Shown: one piece after another, positions 11,309 to 33,000 of the stretch
Layout of the letters: every line of letters starts with the position of its first letter
Numbering within the stretch: position 1 is the first letter of the stretch
Origin: Strigamia acuminata
Taxonomy: Eukaryota > Arthropoda > Chilopoda > Geophilomorpha > Linotaeniidae
Reading direction: 5' to 3'
Assembly (NCBI GenBank): GCA_949358305.1
Contig: OX442314.1
Location: 22,871,060-22,935,059 of the forward strand
DNA length: 64,000 bases
Program-made: the position numbers and the translations under genes
Notes under the pieces: generated by a model
The model's input: only the letters and a program-made list of their open reading frames with translations
The model's database searches: none
What the model was told of the DNA's origin: nothing

Positions 11309-13097
11309 TTAATCTCGCGTCACATAATCGTCTAATGAGCTTAACTTAGGCACCTTTGATTTGGTAACTGGAAAAGAGGTTTCGTACTCAGACAAGCGCC
11401 TCTTACATGTAATCGTCAGGCAAAATCTAGCAACATAAAGGATTTCTCTTTACATACAAAAATGTTTAAAATATACCTTCGGCGATTGAATGTCTACACT
11501 GTCCATTCTTTGCACTAAAATAAAAAATAATAATAATTTCAACTCATTTTTAAAATAAAATACATATTAAGCACCTTTTCATTGCTACTTTTCCAAGTGG
11601 CATCACGTCTACCGTCTTCCCCCGAATATAACACCATGGTGTTGTATTCGAGTTTTGCCCAAAATCGCAAGTTTGCAAACATTGAGCAAAAATTCGAATA
11701 TAACACCACTTCAGCTATAACACCATGGTGTTATATTCGAATACACCCCCATGGTGTTATATTCGAATTTTTTATTGTTTTCGAATACACACCATGGTGT
11801 TATATTCGAATTTTTAGAAAAATATGAAAGACGTACAGTGTACGCTTCCAAAACGCAACTGAAACGTGCACGAAACGTGGATTTTACATATTTAACATAC
11901 AGCACCATGGTGTTATATTCGGGGGAAGACGGTAGTGATGGCGATCCAACATCCTGCAAACAACTGGCGCATTTTTTTATTTTCTCTCTTTCCTCTTTCA
12001 TTTTTTTCAACTGCTGTTCCAATCTAGTTGAGCGCGCCTTGTGGTCGTTAACATTATATTGTAATAATCTGATCTCTATTTTTAATTTTCCCGTGTCTGT
12101 TTTTAATTCTCTCTTTTCTGTTCCCGCACTTTCGATCTCCTTCGTTAGGTTTCGTGTTTCCTCGCCTGATTTAATCAGTTTCCTATTTTAAAAAAATTTA
12201 AATAAATAATTCAGAAATTTTTTATTTTAATTTAAATTAGAATTTGGTCAAAATACTCACCGTCTAATGGCCAAATGCCATCTCAGTACCTCTTCAACTT
12301 GTGGTTTTTCTCCACATTTCTCGATTACATCTTCAAACATTTTTAGTTGCATCCTCCATGAACATTTTCAAGCTAGAAATTCCAAATTATTACAACAAAT
12401 TCAATAAAATAAAAATTGATTCTCGATTTTTATAGTAAACTTAAAATATACTTCTGAAAACTCGCAAATTTCTTCTCTAATTCAGCCAACTCAGATTTCA
12501 TAAACGTATTATCAACGCTAAGTTCTGCATTTTTTTCTGCTCTCTTTCAAACACTTTACAAAAAAAATGAAGTTAAAATTATTATACAATATTTCAAAAA
12601 CACAACAAACTTTTTTATTATTTACTGAATCTTGTGCTCAAAATCGGCTTTACACTTCCAAAAGGCAGACTGAATGGTTTGCTTCTCCGTATCTACAGTA
12701 CTAAAATACAAAAAAAAAATTGAATCAAAAGTATTATGTTTAAAAAACACATCAAACTTTTTGATTATTTATCGAATCTTGTGCTCAAGATCGGTAAATT
12801 TCTTCCTTAATTCGTTTTTTTCTTTATTACTATGGTACCTGCCAAAGTAGCTTCACAACTGTCAACTTGGTTTTTCAATTGCGCATAGTTGAAAGTACCA
12901 CTGTCGTCTCGGTTTTCGTCCGTGTCGAAGTATAACTTTGGTATGTTGTTTTGACTTGTAACTTCGAGTCGACATTGAGGACATGTTTTGCTTTCATGCG
13001 CTAAGCAACTTGCATGAAAGGTGTGTCCGCAAAACGTTGCTGCTATATCCTGAATGAAATCAAGTAAGTCGGAACAGATAGAACAACGTGCGTTCAT
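11309..13097 (-). pseudogene. TRAIP copy A, inverted and disrupted
   Basis: The inverted copy spans the full TRAIP gene, from ATG 13095-13097 to a stop at 11309-11311. Damage relative to the intact copy: four residues around the conserved RING tryptophan are deleted (CLAHESKTCPQC in place of CLAQWLHQSKTCPQC); a small insertion frameshifts exon 1 near 12835; the exon 1 donor GT is changed to AT; exon 2 carries inserted intron-like sequence; part of exon 5 is lost; and a 321-bp MITE sits in exon 4. The C-terminal exon remains readable. This is a pseudogene. Confidence 0.82.
11612..11932. mobile_element. MITE with 30-bp terminal inverted repeats and TA duplication
   Basis: A 321-bp insertion in TRAIP pseudogene copy A. 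Its ends are inverted repeats beginning CCGTCTTCCCCCGAATATAA, identical for 30 bp, flanked by TA at 11610-11611 and 11933-11934. The intact TRAIP copy has the empty site: a single TA at 16867-16868 in otherwise matching sequence. The interior repeats a palindromic motif (AACACCATGGTGTT); CCATGG centres lie at 11634, 11723, 11749, 11792 and 11905. No coding capacity. TA duplication points to Tc1/mariner-type mobilisation. Confidence 0.88.
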
Positions 13098-13425
13098 ATT
13101 TCTAGCTTTAAAGAGATTCTTTTGCCGGAGTGACACGCAAATGAAAAGCAGTCCCATTTGCAGACGGTTTTTGTTCTCACTAGATTGACTAGTCCAAGAC
13201 CCATACCGTAACCCATGATTAATCACGGGATAGGAAACCTTCAAGAAATAATAAATGTTTTTGCAAAAAAAATAGAATTTAACTCATAATCGGAACAAAG
13301 AAAAGATATATTTGTATAAAGGTTTAGATAAATTCTTTCGTTTACATTTTTTTTAGAGTGTAGTTGACTCGTCTCGCCCGAGGTGTCGCAGCAGTGCTGT
13401 ACAGAATATAGTTTAAAGCGCAAAT
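13098..13425 (-). repeat. Copy (b) of the TRAIP 5'-flank repeat, inverted
   Basis: This is the reverse complement of the TRAIP upstream region and continues directly into the inverted TRAIP copy A. It includes the CTCGGGCGAGACGAGTCAAC block and the cluster near GGTATGGGTCTTGGAC seen before the intact gene. Confidence 0.7.
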
Positions 13426-13457
13426 TTTTAAAACGAATTTTTTATTGGAATTTATAA

Positions 13458-13694
13458 ATACAATTTCAAACCACGTGGACGGAGATTGCGAAGAGACCGG
13501 AAGAAGAGACGAATGATGAATTTGACGATGTAGTAGAAGACGGTGATAAAGTAACTGACGAAGAATTTGTCGAACTAGACGCAGAGTTTGACGAAAGTCA
13601 CAAAGACGATCGAATTGAAGTAAAACTTAATGAAGTAAATGACGATGATGATGAAGTAAATAACGATAGATTTGACGGATTGGATGATAAATGA
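13458..13694 (+). other. Acidic open-frame fragment inside the TRAIP array
   Basis: Unique sequence trapped between oppositely oriented TRAIP flank copies. One frame is open for 78 codons, from just after TAA 13455-13457 to TGA 13692-13694, and is strongly acidic (for example NDEFDDVVEDGDKVTDEEF). It has no ATG at its start and its left end coincides with the repeat boundary, so it looks like a captured exon or transposase N-terminal fragment. I do not recognise it. Confidence 0.45.
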
Positions 13695-13721
13695 GACGAC
13701 TAAAAAACGAAGCGAATGCCA

Positions 13722-13960
13722 AACCAGCAGTGCTGCGACACCTCGGGAGAGACGAGTCAACTACACTCTAAAAAAAATGTAAACGAAAGAATTCATCTAA
13801 ACCTTTAGATAAATAAATCTTTTCTTTGTTCCAATTATGGGTAAAAATCTATTTTTTTGCAAAAATACAAAACCGTTTGTAAATGGCGCTGCTTTTCAGA
13901 TGTGTTTAATGATTTCTTCGATAGTTACTCCGAGAAAGGAATCTCTTTAAAGCTATAAAG
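13722..13960 (+). repeat. Copy (c) of the TRAIP 5'-flank repeat
   Basis: Direct-orientation copy beginning CAGTGCTGCGACACCTCGGG and running into TRAIP copy C. It is shorter in the middle than the copy before intact TRAIP. Confidence 0.7.
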
Positions 13961-14284
13961 ATGAACGCACATTGTTCTATATTTGATTTTATTCAGGATA
14001 TAGCAGCAACGTTTTGCGGACATATATTTCATGTAACTTGCTTAGCGCAGTGGTTGCATCAAAGCAAAACATGTCCACAATGTCGACTCAAAGTTACCAG
14101 TCAAAACACCCTAAAAAAGTTATACCACCACACGGACGAAAAACGAGACGACGACAATGGAACTTTCAACTATGTGCAATTAATAAACCAAGTTGACAGT
14201 TGCAAAGCTAGTTTGGCAAGTAGTAATAAAGAAAAAGTCGAATTGATGAAGAAAATTATCGAATTTGAGCACAAGATTCGATAA
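13961..14284 (+). pseudogene. TRAIP copy C: exon 1 only
   Basis: Exon 1 of TRAIP starting at ATG 13961, 107 residues before a stop. A five-residue deletion (CSIFDFIQD in place of CSICSDLFDFIQD) removes the second zinc-binding cysteine of the RING. The exon 1 donor is mutated from GT to AT (AAGATTCGATAAATAATC). It is followed only by the start of intron 1, then by the centre of a large inverted repeat. It cannot make TRAIP. Confidence 0.8.
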
Positions 14285-14629
14285 ATAATCAAAACGTTTG
14301 TTGTGTTTTTTTAACGCAGTGGCTACGTCACGTTGTAATAAGAACACCGTGACGTAGCCACTGCGTTAAAAAAACACAACAAACTTTTTGATTATTTACC
14401 GAATCTTGTGCTCAAATTCGATAATTTTCTTCATCAATTCGACTTTTTCTTTATTACTACTTGCCAAACTAGCTTTGCAATTTTCAACTTGGTTTAATAA
14501 CTGCGCATTGTTGACAGTTCCACTGTCGTCGTCTCGGTTTTCGTCCGCGTCTTATGTATGATCTTTTGACTGGTAACTTCGAGTCGACATTGAGGACATG
14601 TTTTGCTTTGATGCAACCACTGCGCTAAG
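14041..14629. repeat. Long hairpin: TRAIP exon 1 inverted repeat with 15-nt loop
   Basis: The left arm 14041-14332 and right arm 14348-14629 are reverse complements over about 285 bp, separated by only 15 nt (14333-14347). The innermost 37 bp either side are perfectly complementary and contain a segment (AACGCAGTGGCTACGTCACG) not seen in the other TRAIP copies; the outer parts differ by scattered substitutions. The arms carry the coding sequence for TRAIP residues from the middle of the RING to the end of exon 1. A transcript across this would fold into a long duplex. Confidence 0.88.
14348..14629 (-). pseudogene. TRAIP copy D: inverted exon 1 fragment
   Basis: This is the right arm of the hairpin, sense to TRAIP on the minus strand. 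It starts abruptly inside the RING (matching CLAQWLHQSKTCPQC) where it abuts retrotransposon gag sequence at 14630. It has a short deletion in the FDTDE region but keeps the GT donor at the exon 1 end. Confidence 0.75.
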
Positions 14630-14998
14630 GTTTCAATCCATTTCCACGTTTTTCGTGCACAACATGGTAATTGTGATCGTTCAACTTCTCGACTTTCGTA
14701 TGATCGGCCATTCTTTCGATCTATCGAGATTTAGTTACATGAAAACGCGATATTACGATTTACAATTAGTTAGCGCAATGGAAGCGTGCTGGGCCCATAA
14801 CCTGTTATGTTACTACTAAAAGTACGAATGTGTTGTGCAAGGAACGACTTGAATCAAGAACTGATTTTATTTAGATACAAAGGGGGGTTATATACCCCTA
14901 TACGCCGTTGCGCCCTATGGACGTTTTCGATGCATCACTCGTAACGTACGGTGGATGTTTGTTTCACGAAACTGGTGGGAATGGTTGATAATCCAGCA
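14630..14998 (-). mobile_element. 5' end of a Ty1/copia-like LTR retrotransposon (LTR, PBS, start of gag)
   Basis: Read on the minus strand. The LTR is about 14998-14803; it ends AACATAACA, contains a TATA-like GTATATAACC and an AATAAA, and its exact 5' end is uncertain. Bases 14802-14770 form a primer-binding site beginning GGTTATGGGCCCAGCACG, complementary over about 33 nt to the 5' half of initiator tRNA-Met; copia-type elements prime from an internal cut of that tRNA. An ATG at 14709-14711 opens a frame MADHTKVEKLNDHNYHV, resembling the KLN-x-x-NY start of copia gag. The element is cut off at 14630, fused to the TRAIP fragment. No reverse transcriptase or second LTR is present. Confidence 0.68.
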
Positions 14999-15000
14999 AG

Positions 15001-15300
15001 AGGTTTATTTAAAATCAAATCCAAACTATAATTTTTGAAAGCTTAAATGTAAAATTTCGTAAATTTTTAAAGTTGTATTTGTAAATTCCAATAAAAAATT
15101 CGTTTTAAAAATTCGCGCTTTAAACTATATTCTGTACAGCACTGTTGCGACGCCTCGGGAGAGACGAGTCAACTACACTCTAAAAAAAATGTAAACGAAA
15201 GAATTTATCTAAACCTTTAGACAAATAAATCTGTTCTTTGTTCCGATTATGGGTTAAATTTTTTTTTTTTTTAAATAATACGCAGTAATTTAATTTAATT
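15001..15300 (+). repeat. Copy (d) of the TRAIP 5'-flank repeat, without a gene
   Basis: It begins AGGTTTATTTAAAATC, matching 10126 and 15348, includes the CGCCTCGGGAGAGACGAG block, and degrades into an (ATTTA)n-type tract at about 15285-15310. No TRAIP exon follows before the next flank copy. Confidence 0.65.
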
Positions 15301-15329
15301 TAATTTAATTACGATTTTACAACACCAAT

Positions 15330-15811
15330 TATTGTTTATTTGTTCAGAGGTTTATACATATAAAATCACCGATTTACATCCAAACTTTAATTTTTGAAAA
15401 TCTAAAAGTAAAATTCCGTAATTTTTAAAATTGTATTTGTGAATTCTTTTAAAAAATTCGCGCTTTAAACTATATACCTGTACTGCGCAGCACTGCTGCG
15501 ACCCCTCGGGAGAGACGAGTCAACTACACTCTAAAAGAAATGTGAACAAAAGAATTTATTTAAATCTTTAGATGAATAAATCTTTTCTTTGTTCCCATTC
15601 TGGGTCAAATTCTATTTTTTTGCAAAAACATTTATTATTTCTCGAAGGTTTAGGCTTCCTATCCCGTGATGAATTATGGGTTACGGTATGGGTCTTGGAC
15701 TAGTCAATCGAGTGAGAACAAATCCGTTTGAAAATGGCGCTGCTTTTTAGATGTGTTTAATGATTTCTTCGATAGTTAGTCCGGGCAAGGAATCTCTTTA
15801 AAGCTAGAAAG
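15330..15811 (+). promoter_or_regulatory. TRAIP: Copy (e) of the flank repeat: 5' region of intact TRAIP
   Basis: Direct copy of the repeat immediately upstream of the intact TRAIP ATG at 15812, so it should contain the working promoter and 5' UTR. Because four other copies share this sequence, the damaged loci may carry promoter activity too. Confidence 0.5.
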
Positions 15812-17321
15812 ATGAACGCACGTTGTTCTATATGTTCGGACTTATTTGATTTCATTCAGGATATAGCAGCAACGTTTTGTGGACATATATTTCATGCAAC
15901 TTGCTTAGCGCAGTGGTTGCATCAAAGCAAAACATGTCCTCAATGTCGACTTAAAGTTACCAGTCAAAAGATCATACAAAAGTTATACTTCGACACGGAC
16001 GAAAAACAAGACGACGACACAGGAACTGTCAACAATGCGCAATTACTAAACCAAGTTGAAAGTTGCAAAGCTAGTTTGGCAGCTAATAATAAAGAAAAAG
16101 TCGAATTGATGAAGAAAATTACCGATTTTGAGGACAAGATTCGGTAAATAATCAAAAAGTTTGTTGTGTTTTTCAAATGTAATAATTTTAATTTCATTTT
16201 TTTGTATTTTAGGGTTCTAGATTCGGAGAAGCAAAGCATCCAGTCTGCCTTTTGGGAGTGTAAAGACAACTGTAAAGTGTTTAAAAGAGAGCTGAAAAAT
16301 ATGCAGACACTTCGCGTTGATAATACGTCTATGAAATCTGAGTTGACTGAAATGAAGAAGAAATTTATGAGTTTCCAAAAGTATATTTTTAGTTTAATAT
16401 AAAAATCTAGAATCAATTTTTATTTTATTGAATTTGTTGAAATAATTTGGAATTTCTAGCTTGAAAATGATAATGGAAAATGCAACTAAAGATGTCGAAG
16501 ATGTAATCGAGAAATGTCGAGAAAAACCACAAGTTGAAGAGGTTCTGAAATGGCATTCGGTCGTTAGACGGTTAGTATTGTGATCAATTCTAATTTAAAT
16601 TTAAAAAAATATTAAAATAAAAAATCTCTAAATTATTTATTAAAATTTTTTTTTCAAAAGGGAACTGATTAAATCAGACGAAGAAAGACGAAAATTAAAA
16701 CAGGAGATTGAAATGGCGCAAAAAGAGAACAGAAAATTACAACAAAATGTCATTGAACACAAAGCGCGCTCAACTGGATTGGAACAGGAGTTGAAATTTA
16801 TGGAAGAGGAAAGAGAAAATATAAAAAAATGCGCCAGTTGTTTGCGAGATGTTGGATCGCCATCACTAGACCCGATGCCACTTGGAAAACTAGCGATGAA
16901 AAGGTGCTTAATATTTATTTTATTTTTAAAATGAGTTGAAATTATATATTTTATTTATTTTAGTCCAAAGAATGGACAGCGGAGACATTCAAACACCGAA
17001 GATTGGATTGCACTGTCACCTGAGGTATATTTTAAACATTTTTGTGTATAAAGAGAAATTATATATATTTTATGTTTTTAGATTTTGCCTGACAAATCGA
17101 CAAATGTGGTTACTAAACGCAATAATCGTGTTGTGCGAACTGGTATATCGATTACATCTAAGAGACATTTGTCAGATTCATCTATGCCGATGAGGCTGAA
17201 GTCTAGTAATTTTCATTTTAATGGGTTAGGTGGTTGTTCTAAGTACGAAACCCCTTTTCCAGTTTCAAAATCAAAGGTGCCTAAGTTAAGTTCGTTAGAC
17301 GATTATGTGACGCTAGAATAA
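15812..17321 (+). CDS. TRAIP: E3 ubiquitin ligase TRAIP (intact copy)
   Basis: Six exons: 15812-16143, 16213-16380, 16460-16570, 16661-16903, 16964-17024 and 17082-17321. All have GT-AG junctions and join in phase to 384 residues (human TRAIP is 469). Residues 5-45 form a RING-H2 with ligands C5, C8, C23, H25, H28, C31, C42 and C45, and a CPQC signature. A long coiled coil rich in Glu and Lys follows (about 60-270). The C-terminus carries the NGLGGCSKY motif, aligning with the conserved DGLGGRTKF of vertebrate TRAIP. TRAIP is a nuclear ligase that ubiquitinates the CMG helicase at stalled or converging replication forks and at mitotic entry (family knowledge). This is the only copy in the array with an intact RING, frame and splice sites. 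GULO starts 213 bp downstream on the same strand. Confidence 0.92.
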
Positions 17322-23018: not shown

Positions 23019-26000
23019 ATGGAGGATAATAATGACATTGTCGTTTGCGCTGCGGAAATTATCAAAGGTACAAACGTGTAAATAATCTACGATGTTGACT
23101 TAACATCGATTTAATTCGCTCAAAAAAATACATTTTTATTTACATTTCAGATCGGTTGAACTTTGCCACACTTCGTACGTCGGCAAAGCCTAAATCCACT
23201 CCAAATACTCATTATTTTAGCATTGATCAAGAGCTGGTTTATGAAAAGTAATGAATTTTTTTTTTTTTTTTTAAATGAATTTTTTTGACATGTTTTAATT
23301 TTTTAACATTTTTTTCATGTGTTTAAAACAGTTTTTATGCGGATTTTGGTCCCTTGAATTTAGCCATGTTATATCGTTATTGCACAAGATTAAATAAGAA
23401 ATTAAAGGTGAGAAAAGTTAATTTCTTTGCTTTTCTTTTTTTCAAGGTGAGCACGTTGTAATAAGCCACCGCCTTCATAAATCGTTGGAAAACTTCCAAC
23501 AATTTATGATCTAATTAAAAATGTGTTTTAAATGACTTCTGGAATTCATAAATGTAAGTGAAGCGAGACCACACCTTAATCAGAAAATCAGATTAAAGTT
23601 CGACCCTTTTTTATAAAATTAATTTCCGGATTATCTCTACTTTCTATCGCATTTAATTGTGCACTTAAAAAGTTCGAACAAGACGAAACAAATTTTTTTA
23701 AAAGGGAAAACGAGAAACAGGAAGTGAATTTCTGGTGGGGTCAAGCACCAGAGGCTCTTTAAAACGTGTTTATTTTTTTTTCAACAAATACAAATTCTTT
23801 ACCGTAAACATGAATTCCATTTATTTGCAAATTTCTTACAACTTTTTTTTTCCTTCCATTTTTCAACAGTCGTTTAATTTGGGCAAAAAGAAAATCGTGC
23901 ATTATACAACAATGGACAGTAAAAAGCGGGTTAATGCTGCATTTCTCGTTGCATCATATGCAGTAAGTAATAAATTATTCGCGGCGGAATCGGTTTCATC
24001 TATCGGCCAATAAATTCAGGTCAATATGATGTTACTGGTTATGTAATTCTGGAGCGGAAATTTATATATTTGTGCTACGAGTGAAAGCAATCGGAGGATA
24101 ATTTAATGAAAATGCTCCAAATCTTGTCGGAAATAAAAAAATATATATGTAGAATTACATAATATATCTTTTTTTGCCGACTCAAAAAAAAAAAAAAAGA
24201 GCTGAAATGGGAAATGTAAATATTTTGTTCGCACGCCTAATTTGGTTTCGGGTACACAAAAGAACATTTCCTCTAGAGGCACATTTTAATGCGTTTGACA
24301 TTGGTATGTGCTTAATGTGCCATTTCTAATCATTTTTAAAACCTGTTTTTTGAGATCTGATAATTTGTGATTGCGTAATGCAAGTGCCATCCCTCTTTAG
24401 GCAAATAAATTTGCATTTTATAATATATTTTCTTGTCTTGGTAGATAATTTACTTAAAGAAAACACCTACAGAGGTTTATCGGCCACTAATCGGAGACAC
24501 ACACCCTCCTTTTATACCATTTCGGTATTTATAAATTTTTTTCGAGCTATAATTATTTGTTTAATTAATTTTTTTTCTACTTATTAGCGATGCTTCATTC
24601 GGTCCATGTTCTTACAATCTGAATCTTTTGGATTGTTTGAACGCTGTGTACAAAGCGATACAAAACAATTTTTTCAATTTCGATGTTTTTGACGTAGAAG
24701 AGTACGAATATTATGAGGTGAAATTCAATGATCGTATTAATGTTGCTAGATGGGTCGTCTAACCGATTTATTTTCATTTCCATTATACACAGCAAGTTGA
24801 AAACGGAGATCTCAACTGGATCATTCCCAATAAATTTTTAGCTTTTTGTGGACCGCATCCGAAGAGCAAAATCGAAAATGGTATCAAAATAATTTTTTTT
24901 TTAAAATGTAAATCAAATTTTTATTTATTTATTTATTTATTTTGTTTTTAGGTTATCCTCTTCATGCTCCTGAAGCATACATTCCATATTTTAAAAAACA
25001 CAATGTCACAACGATAGTTCGCCTTAACGAAAAACTATATGATGCACAAAGGTTTGTTAACGCGGGTTTCAGCCACAAGGATTTGTTCTTCGTCGACGGT
25101 AGTACCCCCAGTGATGCAATCATGAGGCAGTTTTTAGAAATCGCAGAGACGTCGAAAGGAGCCATTGCTGTACACTGTAAAGCCGGATTGGGACGTACAG
25201 GCACACTTATTGCATGCTACATCATGAAGCATTACCGCTTTACAGCGGCTGAATCGATAGCGTGGATACGTGTAACACGTCCGGGTTCTGTAATCGGTTA
25301 TCAACAACATTGGTTGGAAGAGTAAGTTAGCAATGAAGTTGATTCTTTAAAGTGATTTTTTTGAAAATTTTTTTTTTTTAGGAAACAAGCTTATTTGTGG
25401 TTGCAAGGAGACGTTTGTCGATCGCAAGTTGGTGTGAAGTCGATCATTAATAATAATATGGTTACTCGAGGGCAAAGCTCGACACTTCGCGATTCATCAT
25501 CGAGAGTATCTCGAATTTTAAATAAAGTGGACAGTATAAGATTAGATGACTCAAGGACAGCTAATGTAGGATTGATTTTGTCGAGCGGTGGGAAGAGAGT
25601 TTGTAATGCTGAGGAAATTATTCAAAATTACGCCCAATTTGGCCTAAATTGATGGATAAAATGGTTATCTAGGGAACAAAAAATATGAATTAGGCATCTT
25701 TATGTGCACAAATATTTTTAAAATGCAGTTTTAGGTGTAAAACTGCAATTTTCAATGCAAAAAATATGAAAACTGCATTTTTAGGTGCAAAAATATAATA
25801 AAACTGCATTTTAAATGCAAAACAAAAAAATATGCATCTTAGGTTCAAAGATAAGCCTTTTTAGACCCAAAATGCATTTTTTAGGCACGAAAATGGTTCT
25901 TTAGACAAAACAACTACAATAATTTGCACAAGACAGCTCCCTCAGTTGCCACACCCTTGCCCCACCCTGGGTTTATCATTTGTTATTATTTAATTCACCT

Positions 26001-27899
26001 CAATGATTTATTTAGGGAAGCGACACAAATGCCAACGTTGAAGACGGTAATATATCGCAAGGCGATCGACTGAATCAAATCAAAGCCATGAGAAAACATC
26101 CTAGATCGGCCACGAGTGGTACTCTTAGCATGTAAGCAAATAACACTTTTGAAAATTATCAAAAATCGCGCCTAATATTGCCATCATTAGACCCGACGGC
26201 ACGAAAGAAGTACTCCACATGCGCACTAAGACGCAACCGTTTCGCTCGACGAGTTCCAGCCACACCACATCACCCCTCAAGTCAAAATTTAAGATTCAAA
26301 CTACACCTGCTATTATCCGACCACCTCCGAAAAGCGTAAACGATATGACATCATCACCGTCGGTTTCAAAGAGGTTTGTACGTTGTGTCGGAAATGTCGG
26401 CATCGTTTGAATGTGCTTAATTTGTTTAGAACGCTTAGAACTAACTGGTTCTTGGATAAACCTTCGTCAACCTCTTTGTGTTACGTTTCTGGACGGGATA
26501 TTAACGATGTGAAATCTAGTTCTAGGGTGATTAATTCATCTTCCTCTTCTACTAACTATCATTTTCGGTCTAATACTGATCTAACTACTCATCCTACCAC
26601 TTCATCTTTGTCTACTTGTGTTAGTATATGGGCACCACAGTAAGTCGTGGAAGTTTAGTTCGAGTTGTGTGTGCAGAGACGCAACCAGAAATTAATTTAA
26701 TTGTTCGGATGCAATTTTGCAAGAAAGTTTAGTTTAGAGTCAGTGGACATTTTGTATTTCTCCGAAATCAATAGATCGAGTTCAGAAATGCATTTATTAG
26801 GCTAGTTTTTACTTTTTAGGAAGATGAATGACTATCGCCAATAAAAAATAGGCTTTTTAGATTTTGACTAAAAATAGACCAATTTAGACAAAAAAAAAGA
26901 CTTTTTATTCAATAGTAGACCATTTCAGACGGATATTTTAGATTTTTACTCAATAATAGACTATTTCAGAGACAGATATTTTAGATTTTTACTCAATAGT
27001 AGACCATTTCAGGCAGATATTTTTGATTTCTACTCAAAATAGACCATTTCACACAGAAATTGTAGTTTTTGACTCGAAATAGACCAATTTAGACATAAAT
27101 ATAACATTTTAGACATAAAATAGACCAATTTAGACATAAATATAACATTTTAGACATAAAATAGACCAATTTAGACATAAATATAACATTTTAGACATAA
27201 AATAGACCAATTTAGACATAAATATAACATTTTAGACATAAAATAGACTAATTTAGACATAAATATAACATTTTAGACATAAATATAACATTTTAGACAT
27301 AAAATATAACATTTTAGACATAAATATAACATTTTAGACATAAAATAGACCAATTTAGACATAAATATAACATTTTAGATATAAAATAGACTAATTTAGA
27401 CATAAATATAACATTTTAGACATAAATATAACATTTTAGACATAAAATATAACATTTTAGACATAAAATATAACATTTTAGACATAAAATATAACATTTT
27501 AGACATAAAATAGACCATTTTAGACATAAAATAGACCATTTTAGACAAAAAAAATGAACTTTTTACTCAATAATAGACCATTTCAGGGACAGATATTTTA
27601 GATTTTTACTCAAAAACAGACCATTTCACACAGAATTTGTAGTTTTTGACTCAAAATAGACCATTTTAGACAAAATTTTACATGTTTTTTTAATCTGAAA
27701 ATGAAATTTTCTGGCAAAAATGCACCCCCAACAACCCTGGTTGCGTTACTGATCATTTGTAAAAATGTTATTTCTCTTCAATTTTTGTTTGCTTTTTTAT
27801 TCGCATTCTTACTAATTGTTTATTCTTTTTAGTACTCGGGCAAGTGATGGCACCACTTCGGTGTTCAAACGTGCTACTCGGGCATCCATGTTAAGATGA
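23019..27899 (+). CDS. CDC14: Dual-specificity phosphatase CDC14
   Basis: Thirteen exons: 23019-23067, 23151-23247, 23332-23407, 23870-23962, 24445-24524, 24588-24717, 24793-24880, 24952-25321, 25382-25565, 26016-26131, 26191-26373, 26430-26639 and 27833-27899, giving 580 residues (human CDC14A is about 594). The N-terminal half matches CDC14 almost continuously ([42 protein letters not shown]). The PTP signature [11 protein letters not shown] has its catalytic cysteine at residue 280 and arginine at 286. The C-terminal third is Ser/Thr-rich and basic. CDC14 reverses CDK phosphorylation and in animals acts in DNA repair, cilia and hearing. The exon 9 donor (25566) is a best fit; reading on instead ends at TGA 25650-25652, a possible shorter isoform. 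The frame continues past the final TGA (next entry). The last intron holds a large minisatellite. Confidence 0.92.
25725..25905. repeat. Degenerate tandem repeat in the CDC14 exon 9-10 intron
   Basis: Imperfect units around AAAACTGCATTTTTAGGTGC recur about six times with drifting spacing. Confidence 0.55.
26820..27690. repeat. AT-rich minisatellite in the last CDC14 intron
   Basis: About 870 bp of tandem units built on TTTAGACATAAA, alternating with AATAGACCA and TATAACA blocks. The core (about 27080-27545) is regular; the flanks (26860-27060 and 27550-27690) are older, longer and diverged (TAGACCATTTCAGACAGATA type). It accounts for most of the 1193-nt intron 26640-27832. Confidence 0.85.
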
Positions 27900-28217
27900 C
27901 TAAACCCTCAACCCACCAGTTGTCCACGCCCTAAAAAATACAATCGATTTATTGAAAAATCCAAACCAACCCTTTTGGAGAAGCAAGAGAATGTCGTTTG
28001 TAAAATAACCACCAGTAAGAAAAGTCTGCGCTCTCAACGTCATCCCAGTACGCCCGTTACTAGTAATGTTGGCAGCAAAAGACTTGGCGTTGAGGTGATA
28101 GCCGGCAAAAAAATGATTTTACAATCGCGTGTTATAAATTCAAGATACATGTTGCGGAATCTTGACAAGGAAAAATCCTTTCATAATAAAAGCAATATTT
28201 GTGAAAAATATAATTAA
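27900..28217 (+). CDS. CDC14: Candidate stop-codon readthrough extension of CDC14
   Basis: Directly after the CDC14 stop TGA (27897-27899) the same frame is open for 105 codons to TAA at 28217. The stop context is TGA CTA, the hexanucleotide known to promote programmed readthrough of UGA in animals. The extension is strongly basic and protein-like (for example RPKKYNRFIEKSKP and KKSLRSQRHPSTPVTSN) and has no ATG near its start. It resembles a nuclear or DNA-binding tail, which is inference. Alternatives: a 57-nt in-frame intron using a poor donor (GTTCAA at 27863, acceptor AG at 27918-27919), or a point change that created the stop. Confidence 0.6.
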   Translation, partial: LNPQPTSCPRPKKYNRFIEKSKPTLLEKQENVVCKITTSKKSLRSQRHPSTPVTSNVGSKRLGVEVIAGKKMILQSRVINSRYMLRNLDKEKSFHNKSNICEKYN

Positions 28218-30055
28218 ATGGGATTTGGGTGGCGTTATTTTTGTAAAACAAAAAATGATAAAGAAACAGTGCTTTCGTGTAATTTTAATAGAAAAACAAA
28301 ACAAAACAAAAGAAGAAAAAAGTAGAAGTAAACATTGGTAATGAAGTGGTTTGAAGAAATGGTGGGTTTTGATTGTCCATGTCATTCTGTAATGGGGTGA
28401 AATGAGGAAACTTACTACTAATGTCATGTTACTTCTTCCACAAATTTTTAGTAAATATTTCCTGTGTAAATAGTTTTAAAAATATTAAAATTGGATTTTT
28501 TGGGCTACGTTTTGTAGCACCGACAAGAAAATGAATACAAAAAAATAATATAAGTTGTATAATCTGGTTTAGTGAAATTATTATGACTTATTTTTTTAAA
28601 TAATAACTTTTTTTAGGAATGTACTTAAGTTTTAAACCTAAATTTTTGGTATATATAGTTGTTTGTTCTTTAAGTTGGATTTTTATTATTCATCATGCTT
28701 GAGCAAAATTTTTAAATTTGTAATTCTAACGTTAGAAAGAAGAAAAAAAAATGTTTAAAGAACTGTGTATAAAAATTCCAAGTTTTATTTGTGTATAAAA
28801 ATAAAGAAATAATCTGTTCTCTTTTTAGAATTTAGAGTATTTTCCACATGTAGAACCCTATGTTATTAAAATTTTATAGTTGCATTATGAATTGCCATGA
28901 ATTTAAATTCAACACGATCATTTATTCACATCGAGTAAATACGTTTGCGACGTCATTCAAAGTAAACAACATAAATTCCTAAAGGAATTTTACATAAACA
29001 ACAATTTGAATGATTTTTAATAATTAAATTCTGCTCGATAACTCGTTTAATTCGTCCAAAACTATCGATTTTCGTAATTACATCCGTTGTTTATTCTCCA
29101 AAATAATCACAAACTAAAATTTTAACAATTCACACTAGAGTTCCCTCAATAAGGAAGTGACGTTATATGCGCAAATTTATTGCGCAGTAGGTTAGATTTT
29201 GTCAAGTTAATATAGTAACTGCTGGAGATTCCATAATTTCTTTCCAGGTAATGTAAAACCACATTTTGAATCACTTTATTTATTATAACCCGCTAATTTA
29301 ACAAGCGAATCAATCGACCTACGATTAAAAGTGATTCCCAATAAGCACGGCGAACCGTGGAATGAAATATTTAACCTACAAGTAATGTTATTCCAAAGGA
29401 ATTCACATTTGACATGAAAACGTAGGCCTACATTCATCTTTTTTTTTCACCCACTTACTTTCATTTTAGATTTTTATTATAAACGCTTAAATAAATAACG
29501 ATAACCGACTTTGAAATTCTCCGTTCGATGCGAACATTGAGCGATAAGAGTTGCAAACGGTTGGGAAAAACGAAATAAGAAAATGGCATTTTTGCAAACC
29601 CCACCGAGTTTGTTTTGCGCTTATCGCTTTTCATTCGTTTTTCAATAAATGTTGTGTAATTTTTTTTTATGTTGAGTATTTCAAATAGCGAGAGGAAATG
29701 GAGTAGAAAGAGAGAAAAAAAAGTGTCCTTAGGGAGTGCGTCATTTTTATTTGAACGTATTGCATTTTGTGAAACAGCTGATCAGTAAGGCAGCTGTTAG
29801 TTGCAAAAATCTAAATATTTAATAAATTATCGTGTATTGAGAGCTGGAATCGAAATTGTGATGATTTTGTGACAATAAAATGTGGAAATGTACAGTTTTA
29901 CGTCGACTAATTAATCCTTTTTTATTAATTATTGTTTTTTTTTTTCTCTTTTCTTTCTAATTGGTATTTTGCAGCTTGGTCTTGTAGTGTTGTGCTTTTA
30001 ATAAGCTGAGAAATTGTTACACAAAAATAACTAGAAAAAGAAGTAAAGAAAATTA
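28218..30055. other. Intergenic between CDC14 and CNOT4
   Basis: AT-rich. An AATAAA at 28800-28805 is a plausible CDC14 poly(A) signal, giving a 3' UTR of about 600 nt after the extension stop. Sequence from about 29500 to 30055 should hold the CNOT4 promoter and 5' UTR; an intron ending near 29973 (TTTTGCAG) is possible. No coding signal seen. Confidence 0.45.
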
Positions 30056-33000
30056 ATGAAAATGTCAGCAAACGATGACCAAAATGTTGAGTGTCCTTTG
30101 TGCATGGAACCGCTTGAAATGGATGACATTAACTTCTTTCCATGCACCTGTGGTTATCAGGTAAAAAAAGAGAGAAACATTACATTTTATTTTTATTAAT
30201 ATGTGTGGGATTTGTTTTAGATATGTCGTTTTTGTTGGCATCGAATTCGAACCGATGAAAATGGATTATGCCCAGCTTGTAGAAAGGTATTGAAGGAAAT
30301 TAATATCGGCGACGATTTTTTCAATACATTTATGTCTAATTGAAGCAATACCCTGAAGATCCAGCTGATTTTAAACCATTGACTCAAGAAGAATTGCAAA
30401 AAATTAAAACAGAAAAAAGACAGAAAGATATGCAAAGGAAACAAAAGTTATCAGAAAATAGGAAGCATTTAGCAAATGTTAGGTAAATATTAACGTTTGG
30501 TATTTAGATGTAGAAATTTAAATGTGAAATTAAAAATAATTAATATTTATGTAGAGTTGTACAGAAGAATCTTGTATTCGTCGTTGGTTTGTCGCAAAGA
30601 TTAGCCGATACAGAAGTATTAAAACGGCACGAGTATTTTGGGAAATTTGGCAAAATTCATAAAGTTGTCATCAATATGAGCACATCTTACGCTGGTTCAC
30701 AGGTTTTTATCCACGCCATTGATTAATTAACGTACTCATTGAACAAAACGTCGAATAGGGTCCGAGCGCGAGCGCATATGTAACTTATCATCGATCCGAC
30801 GATGCGCTACGTGCAATTCACGCTGTAAATAACATCTACGTTGATGGGCGAACATTGAAGGCATCACTAGGGACAACGAAATACTGTAGTCACTTTCTAA
30901 GAGGGCAGCAATGTCCTAAACCAGTAAATACTTAATTTAAACACGAAATTAAAATTTATTTCAATAAACTAAATTATTCTTTTTAGGATTGTATGTACTT
31001 GCACGAACTAGGCGACGAAGCAGCCAGTTTTACAAAAGAGGAAATGCAACAAGGGAAACATCAAGATTACGAAAGAAAACTTCATGAACAGTTGTTCAGT
31101 AATCCTCCAGCTCCGCAGCAACAACCAGCACCACCAGCAGCGGCGGCAGCGGCGGCAGAAAAGAGCAAAGAACAGACGCGAAAACAAGCTTCTTCACCAA
31201 TTCCTCAACAGCAACCGCCACAACAACTACAGCAGCCCCAGATGCAACAAGCACCGCCACCATTACAGCAACCGCAACGCCAATCCCCGCTTAATGCAAA
31301 TTCAAACGACGCATGGCCATCATTGCAAAGTGGTTTCGTAAACAATAGCAGCAGCAACCAATCAAACACAAAAAGTGATGTGCGACAAAAGTCCCAACAG
31401 AATATTACGGCAGGAAAACTTGACAGAGGGAGCAGCGCTGGCTGCAGAAATAGACCAGTGTCGTCAGACGAAGAATGCAGGTAAACCAATCGCTCGCTCA
31501 TCACTTAACTCAAAGTGTATGAACTGACAATAAAATCTCCAAATGACGTTTTTTTTTGTTTATTTTTCTCATTCCTACAGCACCATAGGCAATTGCAGAA
31601 GCAAAGATCAACTGCCGTCGTCGGTACAACACCAAACAACAGTGTTACAACAAAATACAAGCTTGGGGGACCGGTCTCTGCAGATACCGCTCGAGTCGCA
31701 CAACGACCCTCTTCTATCACCCACAAAAACAGATAGCAAATTTCCACAAAATTGTCCGTTGACACGGTCGTCAAGTTCAGTCAACAGTTTTTCTTCAGCC
31801 AACACGCTGCAACAGAACAGAATGTTATTCGATTCTGCCGATAATAATTCATTCTTCAGTAGTGATAATGGATTTCCTCAGAGATCTAGAAACCTAGATT
31901 CCTCACCATCATCTCCACCCGATCCTACAGGTCTATTCGCTCGATTATATCGACACGTTTTGTTGTTGTTAACTTGCTTTTTTTTCTCTTTTAAACAGAG
32001 TGGGCGGCTAATTGTACCGATGCACCACCTCTTATCACGGCTGAAACGCTGCCAGTTTGCAGCGCTACAGATTGGCAAGCTGCTTTTGGCTTTAGTTGTG
32101 CTGCGCCTAATAAAGACGATGATTTAGGTCTTTAAATTTAATTGTTTTTAATGAAATTATGTATTAATTGTTTTATTTTTTTTTAATTTTAGGGTTTGAT
32201 CCATGGGACGAGTCGTCAAAAGCATTAGCAGACTTAATGGAAAAAGAGTCCATGTCTGATCGGCCAACACATTACCCGAATAAAGGTTTAACCACGTTTG
32301 GTTTTCCCGTTAATCGGAGTAGTTCGCAAATGTCCATGAATCACATTGATCATCGATCCAACAATTTAATAGGATCGCCGCACCGATTGGGTGTGCCACC
32401 TGGGTTTTCCACAAATCAGTCAAATCCATTATCGAGACAGATAAACAGACCACAACAACAGAATTCTATAGGAACAAGTAATTTTAAAATGATGCGCACG
32501 TTTGAATTCTTATTTATATCTGTTTGATTTATTTGGTTTCAGATCGCAGTAAAACGATTTTTATGAATTTAACGCATAATAATGTTATGTCCAACAGTTC
32601 GAATAATTATTTACAGGAAACAGCTACTCCAAATTTAGGGTTTAGTAATCACATGAAGGAAAGGACATCAAATAATGCTAAGGTTCAATTTTATTTTATT
32701 TTTTTATTTTTATTTTTTTTAAAATTTATTTATTTCTCGATTTTAGGCTTTAGAAAATTTTGCAATGAAAGAATGGCAAGACAGTATTCGTGCATTGTTA
32801 CCGAACATAAACATCAATTATTCGACTCAGCATCCTGTGTCTCAGAATCAGAAACGTATTATTTGTTTATTCTAATTAAAATTGAGAAAAGTGTTAATTT
32901 TAATAGCAAATTTGTGCATAACAGCCTGGAATCCACCACCACAAACACATTTGTCTTGGATTGCGCAAGACCCAGCCATAGTAACTACAGGAAACCCAAC

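Follow-up and report, generated by a model that had tools for sequence, protein, structure and literature searches.

In mammals the motif for strong stop codon readthrough is UGA CUA G; contexts of high efficiency often have C at positions -5 and +9 and G at -3 (excerpted text of PMC12233894). In a fungal gene, CUA after UGA was sufficient for efficient readthrough (excerpt of PMC4207609). For the centipede Strigamia maritima, the three-frame test of Jungreis et al. (2016) gave "no frame-0 excess at all", which the authors took to mean that this species has few readthrough transcripts, if any, with the caveat that its annotation is incomplete (excerpt of PMC5100048). This was the only relevant paper in the portions of the literature covered on readthrough in CDC14, Strigamia, centipedes and myriapods.

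We analysed a stretch of 64,000 nucleotides of the Strigamia acuminata genome (the window), in which a CDC14 gene ends in TGA CTA and the frame continues. An initial annotation, made from the letters alone, had proposed programmed readthrough of this stop into a basic tail.

The CDC14 gene and its stop codon

The gene lies on the plus strand in 13 exons with consistent frames, and by sequence similarity it is CDC14, as originally named. All three marks of a CDC14 phosphatase are present in the spliced translation: the domains DSPn and DSPc (Pfam, 5.7e-60 and 1.8e-13) and the motif HCxxGxxR, which we take to be the catalytic motif of these enzymes. The top protein match is P0001, the CDC14 of S. 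maritima, with 486 of 512 aligned positions identical. P0001 itself matches solved chains of both CDC14A and CDC14B, among them the CDC14A chain 9rib_A in the PDB (6.1e-173). The features of the gene are as follows.

23019-23067, 23151-23247, 23332-23407 and 23870-23962, plus strand: CDC14 exons 1-4, from the frame chain, the DSPn/DSPc region and identity to P0001
24445-24524, 24588-24717, 24793-24880 and 24952-25321, plus strand: CDC14 exons 5-8, on the same basis
25382-25565, plus strand: CDC14 exon 9; the S. maritima model agrees with the end at 25565, between RTAN and GSD
26016-26131, plus strand: CDC14 exon 10, from the frame chain and the P0001 alignment
26191-26373, plus strand: CDC14 exon 11, from the frame chain and the P0001 alignment
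26430-26639, plus strand: candidate symmetric cassette exon (exon 12), with a strong gtaagt donor; missing from the S. maritima protein
27833-27896, plus strand, with TGA to 27899: last CDC14 coding exon (exon 13), closing in the conserved C-terminal motif
27897-27899, plus strand: TGA, the ancestral CDC14 stop, followed by CTA AAC; S. maritima has the same end, and 16 further matches listed have a motif-type end

The structure that agrees with the S. maritima protein ends exon 9 at 25565 and skips the cassette. Exon 9 (25382-25598) has two in-phase donors, 25566 gtagga and 25599 gtttgt, and use of the latter would insert 11 residues; the S. maritima protein agrees with the first, and the alternative end is 25598. 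The cassette at 26430-26639 preserves phase whether in or out, and both forms end at the TGA of 27897-27899. It has a low codon score, shows no detectable similarity to the Schistocerca protein P0008, and may be an exon or may be intronic instead. Eight of the 12 introns span 56-84 nt. AT-rich tandem repeats at 26855-27680, with units of about 21 and 41 bases, take up much of the last intron, and like stretches occur on other contigs. Elsewhere in the window, three similar RING-finger-like ORFs (CSICSDLLDFIQDIAATFCGHTFH type; the domain was assigned by eye) lie on both strands at 12807-16147 and are perhaps duplicates. On the same strand as CDC14 and 3' of it, 30047-30486 is presumably the start of a CNOT4-like RING gene.

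Exon 13 reads ACT CGG GCA ... TCC ATG TTA AGA TGA and is followed by CTA. Both this exon end and the frame that stays open from it for 105 codons, to TAA at 28215-28217, had been described correctly. The S. maritima protein P0001 terminates at the same residue, in ...FKRTTRASMLR. A pattern for this TTRASMLR-type end, sought within the last 30% of each CDC14 protein, marks the exact end of 17 of the 120 CDC14 matches listed (of 4329), including those of the annelid Capitella, the molluscs Sinanodonta and Babylonia, the crayfish Procambarus, a turtle and a crocodile. The sole internal match among the same 120 of 4329 is in P0064, where it lies 5' of that protein's own end motif, and not one of these 120 runs on beyond a TTRASMLR-type end. 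Most of the matches listed, including long vertebrate and mollusc isoforms, have other ends; 35 of the 120 end in R. The S. acuminata protein has the C-terminal end of the short CDC14 isoform, and at the level of protein ends its first stop stands at the same place as in S. maritima and the 16 further matches listed. Because these ends are shared with S. maritima and with other phyla, sequence comparison identifies the TGA at 27897-27899 as a genuine, ancestral CDC14 stop.

The open frame 3' of the stop

Three features lie 3' of the TGA.

27900-28217, plus strand: frame open for 105 sense codons and closed by TAA 28215-28217; most likely 3' UTR
27900-27919, plus strand: weak possible 3' splice site with AG at 27919 (score -3.8), which stays in the tail frame when spliced to exon 11 or 12
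28185-28190, plus strand: AATAAA within the tail, a hexamer that resembles a polyadenylation signal; the DNA after it is rich in G and T (G+T 0.67)

The open run was claimed to go beyond usual chance, and it does. Under a first-order Markov model with the tail's own dinucleotide composition, the median run is 11 codons and the probability of at least 105 open codons is 0.00125. Empirically, 18 of 2865 stops whose following DNA is of like GC and T content have a run of at least 105 codons; this sample, drawn from the window and 64 loci of the S. acuminata genome in six frames with runs leaving a locus excluded, overstates chance because the loci are exon-enriched and some overlap. Across the whole window, stop-to-stop runs of at least 105 codons number 20 of 3875 on the plus strand and 19 of 3821 on the minus strand, with real coding frames counted in. 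Within 27900-28214 itself, stops number 6 and 12 in the two other forward frames, and 3, 4 and 5 in the reverse frames.

The codon after the stop is also rare. TGA-CTA makes up 102 of 29971 stops (0.34%) in the window and the 64 loci, and only the CDC14 stop among these 102 has a run of at least 105 codons. If the two properties are independent, the joint chance of a long run (P about 0.001-0.006) and TGA-CTA is about 4e-6 to 2e-5 per stop. One such gene per whole genome would be mildly surprising though possible. This coincidence of a long run with a rare context is the strongest argument for readthrough.

The tail was first described as strongly basic and protein-like. The net charge is indeed +16, but the mean for composition-matched open frames is +14.0 (sd 4.9, P = 0.38), so the charge is what composition predicts and is not special. 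A protein-like character was not borne out by codon signal. The codon log-odds score, for which 44 Pfam-located segments (5959 codons) served as the training set, places the tail at z = -0.34 relative to composition-matched open frames; on the same scale, the median is -0.14 across 163 noncoding windows and 1.96 across 30 true coding segments. Uncorrected for composition, the raw score of the tail is higher than that of about 86% of noncoding windows. A frame-contrast model ranks frame 0 first in 31 of 33 true coding segments, but not in the tail. A weak period-3 signal is present (P = 0.019), compared with P < 0.05 in 22 of 30 true coding segments; its signal-to-noise is reached by 6 of 65 noncoding windows, 3 of which 65 have P <= 0.02. 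These codon tests are low-powered for such sequence, because CDC14's own C-terminal half does not pass them either (in each of two tests, 2 of 5 CDC14 windows).

Two protein searches found no homologue of the tail. The tail alone gave one candidate and none at E<=10. The C-terminal region of a full-length CDC14 query gave 181 candidates and none at E<=1, in a search of limited reach for short matches, as it also missed P0001, whose overlap with the region searched is limited to the 22 residues before the stop. The best Pfam match to the tail is below threshold (E 0.15).

The full stop context is AGA TGA CTA AAC, with T at -5, A at -3, A at +7 and C at +9. The context is UGA-CUA, as first described, and lacks the G at +7 of the mammalian motif (as given in the excerpt of PMC12233894). 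A stimulatory stem-loop after the stop was considered and rejected: folding gives a modest signal over 27900-28020 (z -2.05), which is lost over three other spans (z -1.0 to -1.2). Decoding of UGA as selenocysteine was likewise rejected, as Rfam returned nothing at E<=5 for 27833-30040, including no SECIS element.

AATAAA is common in AT-rich DNA, and alternative hexamers follow here (ATTAAA at 28213 and 28484, AATAAA from 28800 on). Between the 60-base steps at 28080 and 28200, GC drops from 0.38 to 0.25; this drop marks no clear transcript end, because GC is back up to 0.35-0.37 at 28320-28439. If the AATAAA at 28185 is used, we infer that the transcript would be cleaved around 28200-28215, which would remove the TAA at 28215-28217 or leave it at the very end.

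Weighing the explanations

CGA to TGA is a common change, and an open frame 3' of the TGA is what a recent nonsense mutation (for example in a CGA codon) or a sequencing error in a longer CDC14 would leave behind. With the same end in S. maritima and a TTRASMLR-type motif terminating CDC14 in other phyla, this explanation is ruled out in practice, and we give it hardly any weight. A base error at the TGA is also unlikely because the assembly was built on 98-fold HiFi reads (excerpt of PMC10556566). That the tail represents a separate ORF, or what is left of another gene, is very unlikely. It has an in-frame ATG at 28113 and lies within a GC-richer stretch, but no homologue was found in the protein searches, Pfam gave no match above cut-off, and no second copy was seen in the genome, where the other 34 matches fall in the intronic repeat. 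Somewhat better placed, though still improbable, is an alternative 3' splice site or exitron, by which an acceptor at 27919 (or 28048, or 28075) in phase with exon 11 or 12 would bypass the TGA and bring in the tail without readthrough. The phase fits at 27919, and some 16 nt 5' of it there is a branch-like CTAAA element. Judged by matrices that derive from the 12 CDC14 introns only, the acceptor at 27919 (-3.8) still outscores one of the 12 real acceptors, the donor at 27863 (-0.5) outscores two of the 12 real donors, and the in-phase AG at 28075 (0.5) outscores five of the 12 real acceptors, each left out in turn. However, the score of 27919 is equalled or exceeded by 42% of all AG in the window and that of 27863 by 65% of all GT, and a donor at 27890 would imply an intron of 30 nt. 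The initial annotation had itself named a rival, a 57-nt intron at 27863-27919 with a poor donor, and was right about its weakness. Such an intron would be of ordinary size for this gene, but it would excise the conserved C-terminal motif. As a constitutive intron it is ruled out, given the lost C-terminus and the weak sites.

Functional programmed readthrough would have some ribosomes decode the UGA and add a basic tail of 105 residues to CDC14, perhaps changing its localisation. We consider this possible but unlikely. A real and conserved stop, rather than a nonsense mutation, is what readthrough calls for; the UGA-CUA context has C directly after the stop and C at +9, and CUA after UGA sufficed in the fungal gene (PMC4207609, in excerpt). 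The long second ORF and the weak period-3 signal also speak for it. Of the original proposal, the gene, its stop, the UGA-CUA context and the unusual length of the open frame stand. A coding or functional tail, to which the proposal also committed itself, finds neither a homologue in the two protein searches nor a codon signal in tests of low power, and AATAAA lies inside it. No convincing stem follows the stop, position +7 is A and not G, and T at -5 and A at -3 replace the frequent C and G (PMC12233894, in excerpt). S. maritima shows no excess of readthrough, subject to its authors' caveat on annotation (PMC5100048, in excerpt). We therefore favour, as the probable explanation, that the stop is genuine and ancestral and that the 3' UTR after it is open by chance, perhaps with incidental leakage, so that the stop would be leaky at most. 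The TGA at 27897-27899 is the ordinary CDC14 stop, at the same place in animals as far off as annelids. The DNA 3' of it would be a stop-poor 3' UTR (A-rich, low in T) whose frame 0 happens to stay open for 105 codons, and the transcript may end at about 28200-28215, just past the AATAAA at 28185. Because UGA-CUA terminates weakly in other eukaryotes, we infer that a few ribosomes may pass the stop; the resulting extension would be incidental and unselected.

Relation to known readthrough systems

If the tail is translated, functional readthrough would extend to a myriapod and to a mitotic-exit phosphatase, and the case would touch on the claimed origin of abundant readthrough in Pancrustacea, after their split from myriapods. 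It would be a centipede case in a genus whose one genome-wide test gave no excess (excerpt of PMC5100048). If the tail is not translated, a favourable stop context and an open frame of 100 codons can coincide by chance, and a comparison of close species is needed ahead of any such claim of readthrough.

The insect readthrough candidates of Jungreis et al. (2016) resemble S. acuminata CDC14 in having UGA-C and, beyond a real stop that is conserved, a long second ORF in frame 0. In contrast to them, the S. acuminata tail found no relative in the two protein searches, and its genus was tested for abundant readthrough and none was found (excerpt of PMC5100048). MDH1, LDHB and AQP4 of mammals and Tpi1 of fungi have UGA CUA in common with CDC14. 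Compared with the UGA CUA (G) genes, CDC14 has A and not G at +7, and its predicted tail of 105 residues carries no known signal (excerpts of PMC12233894 and PMC4207609). A further close system is the bilaterian short isoform of CDC14 with its TTRASMLR-type end. The S. acuminata protein shares with it DSPn, DSPc and the end found in S. maritima, and the sole difference noted between the two is the 105-codon open frame after the stop.
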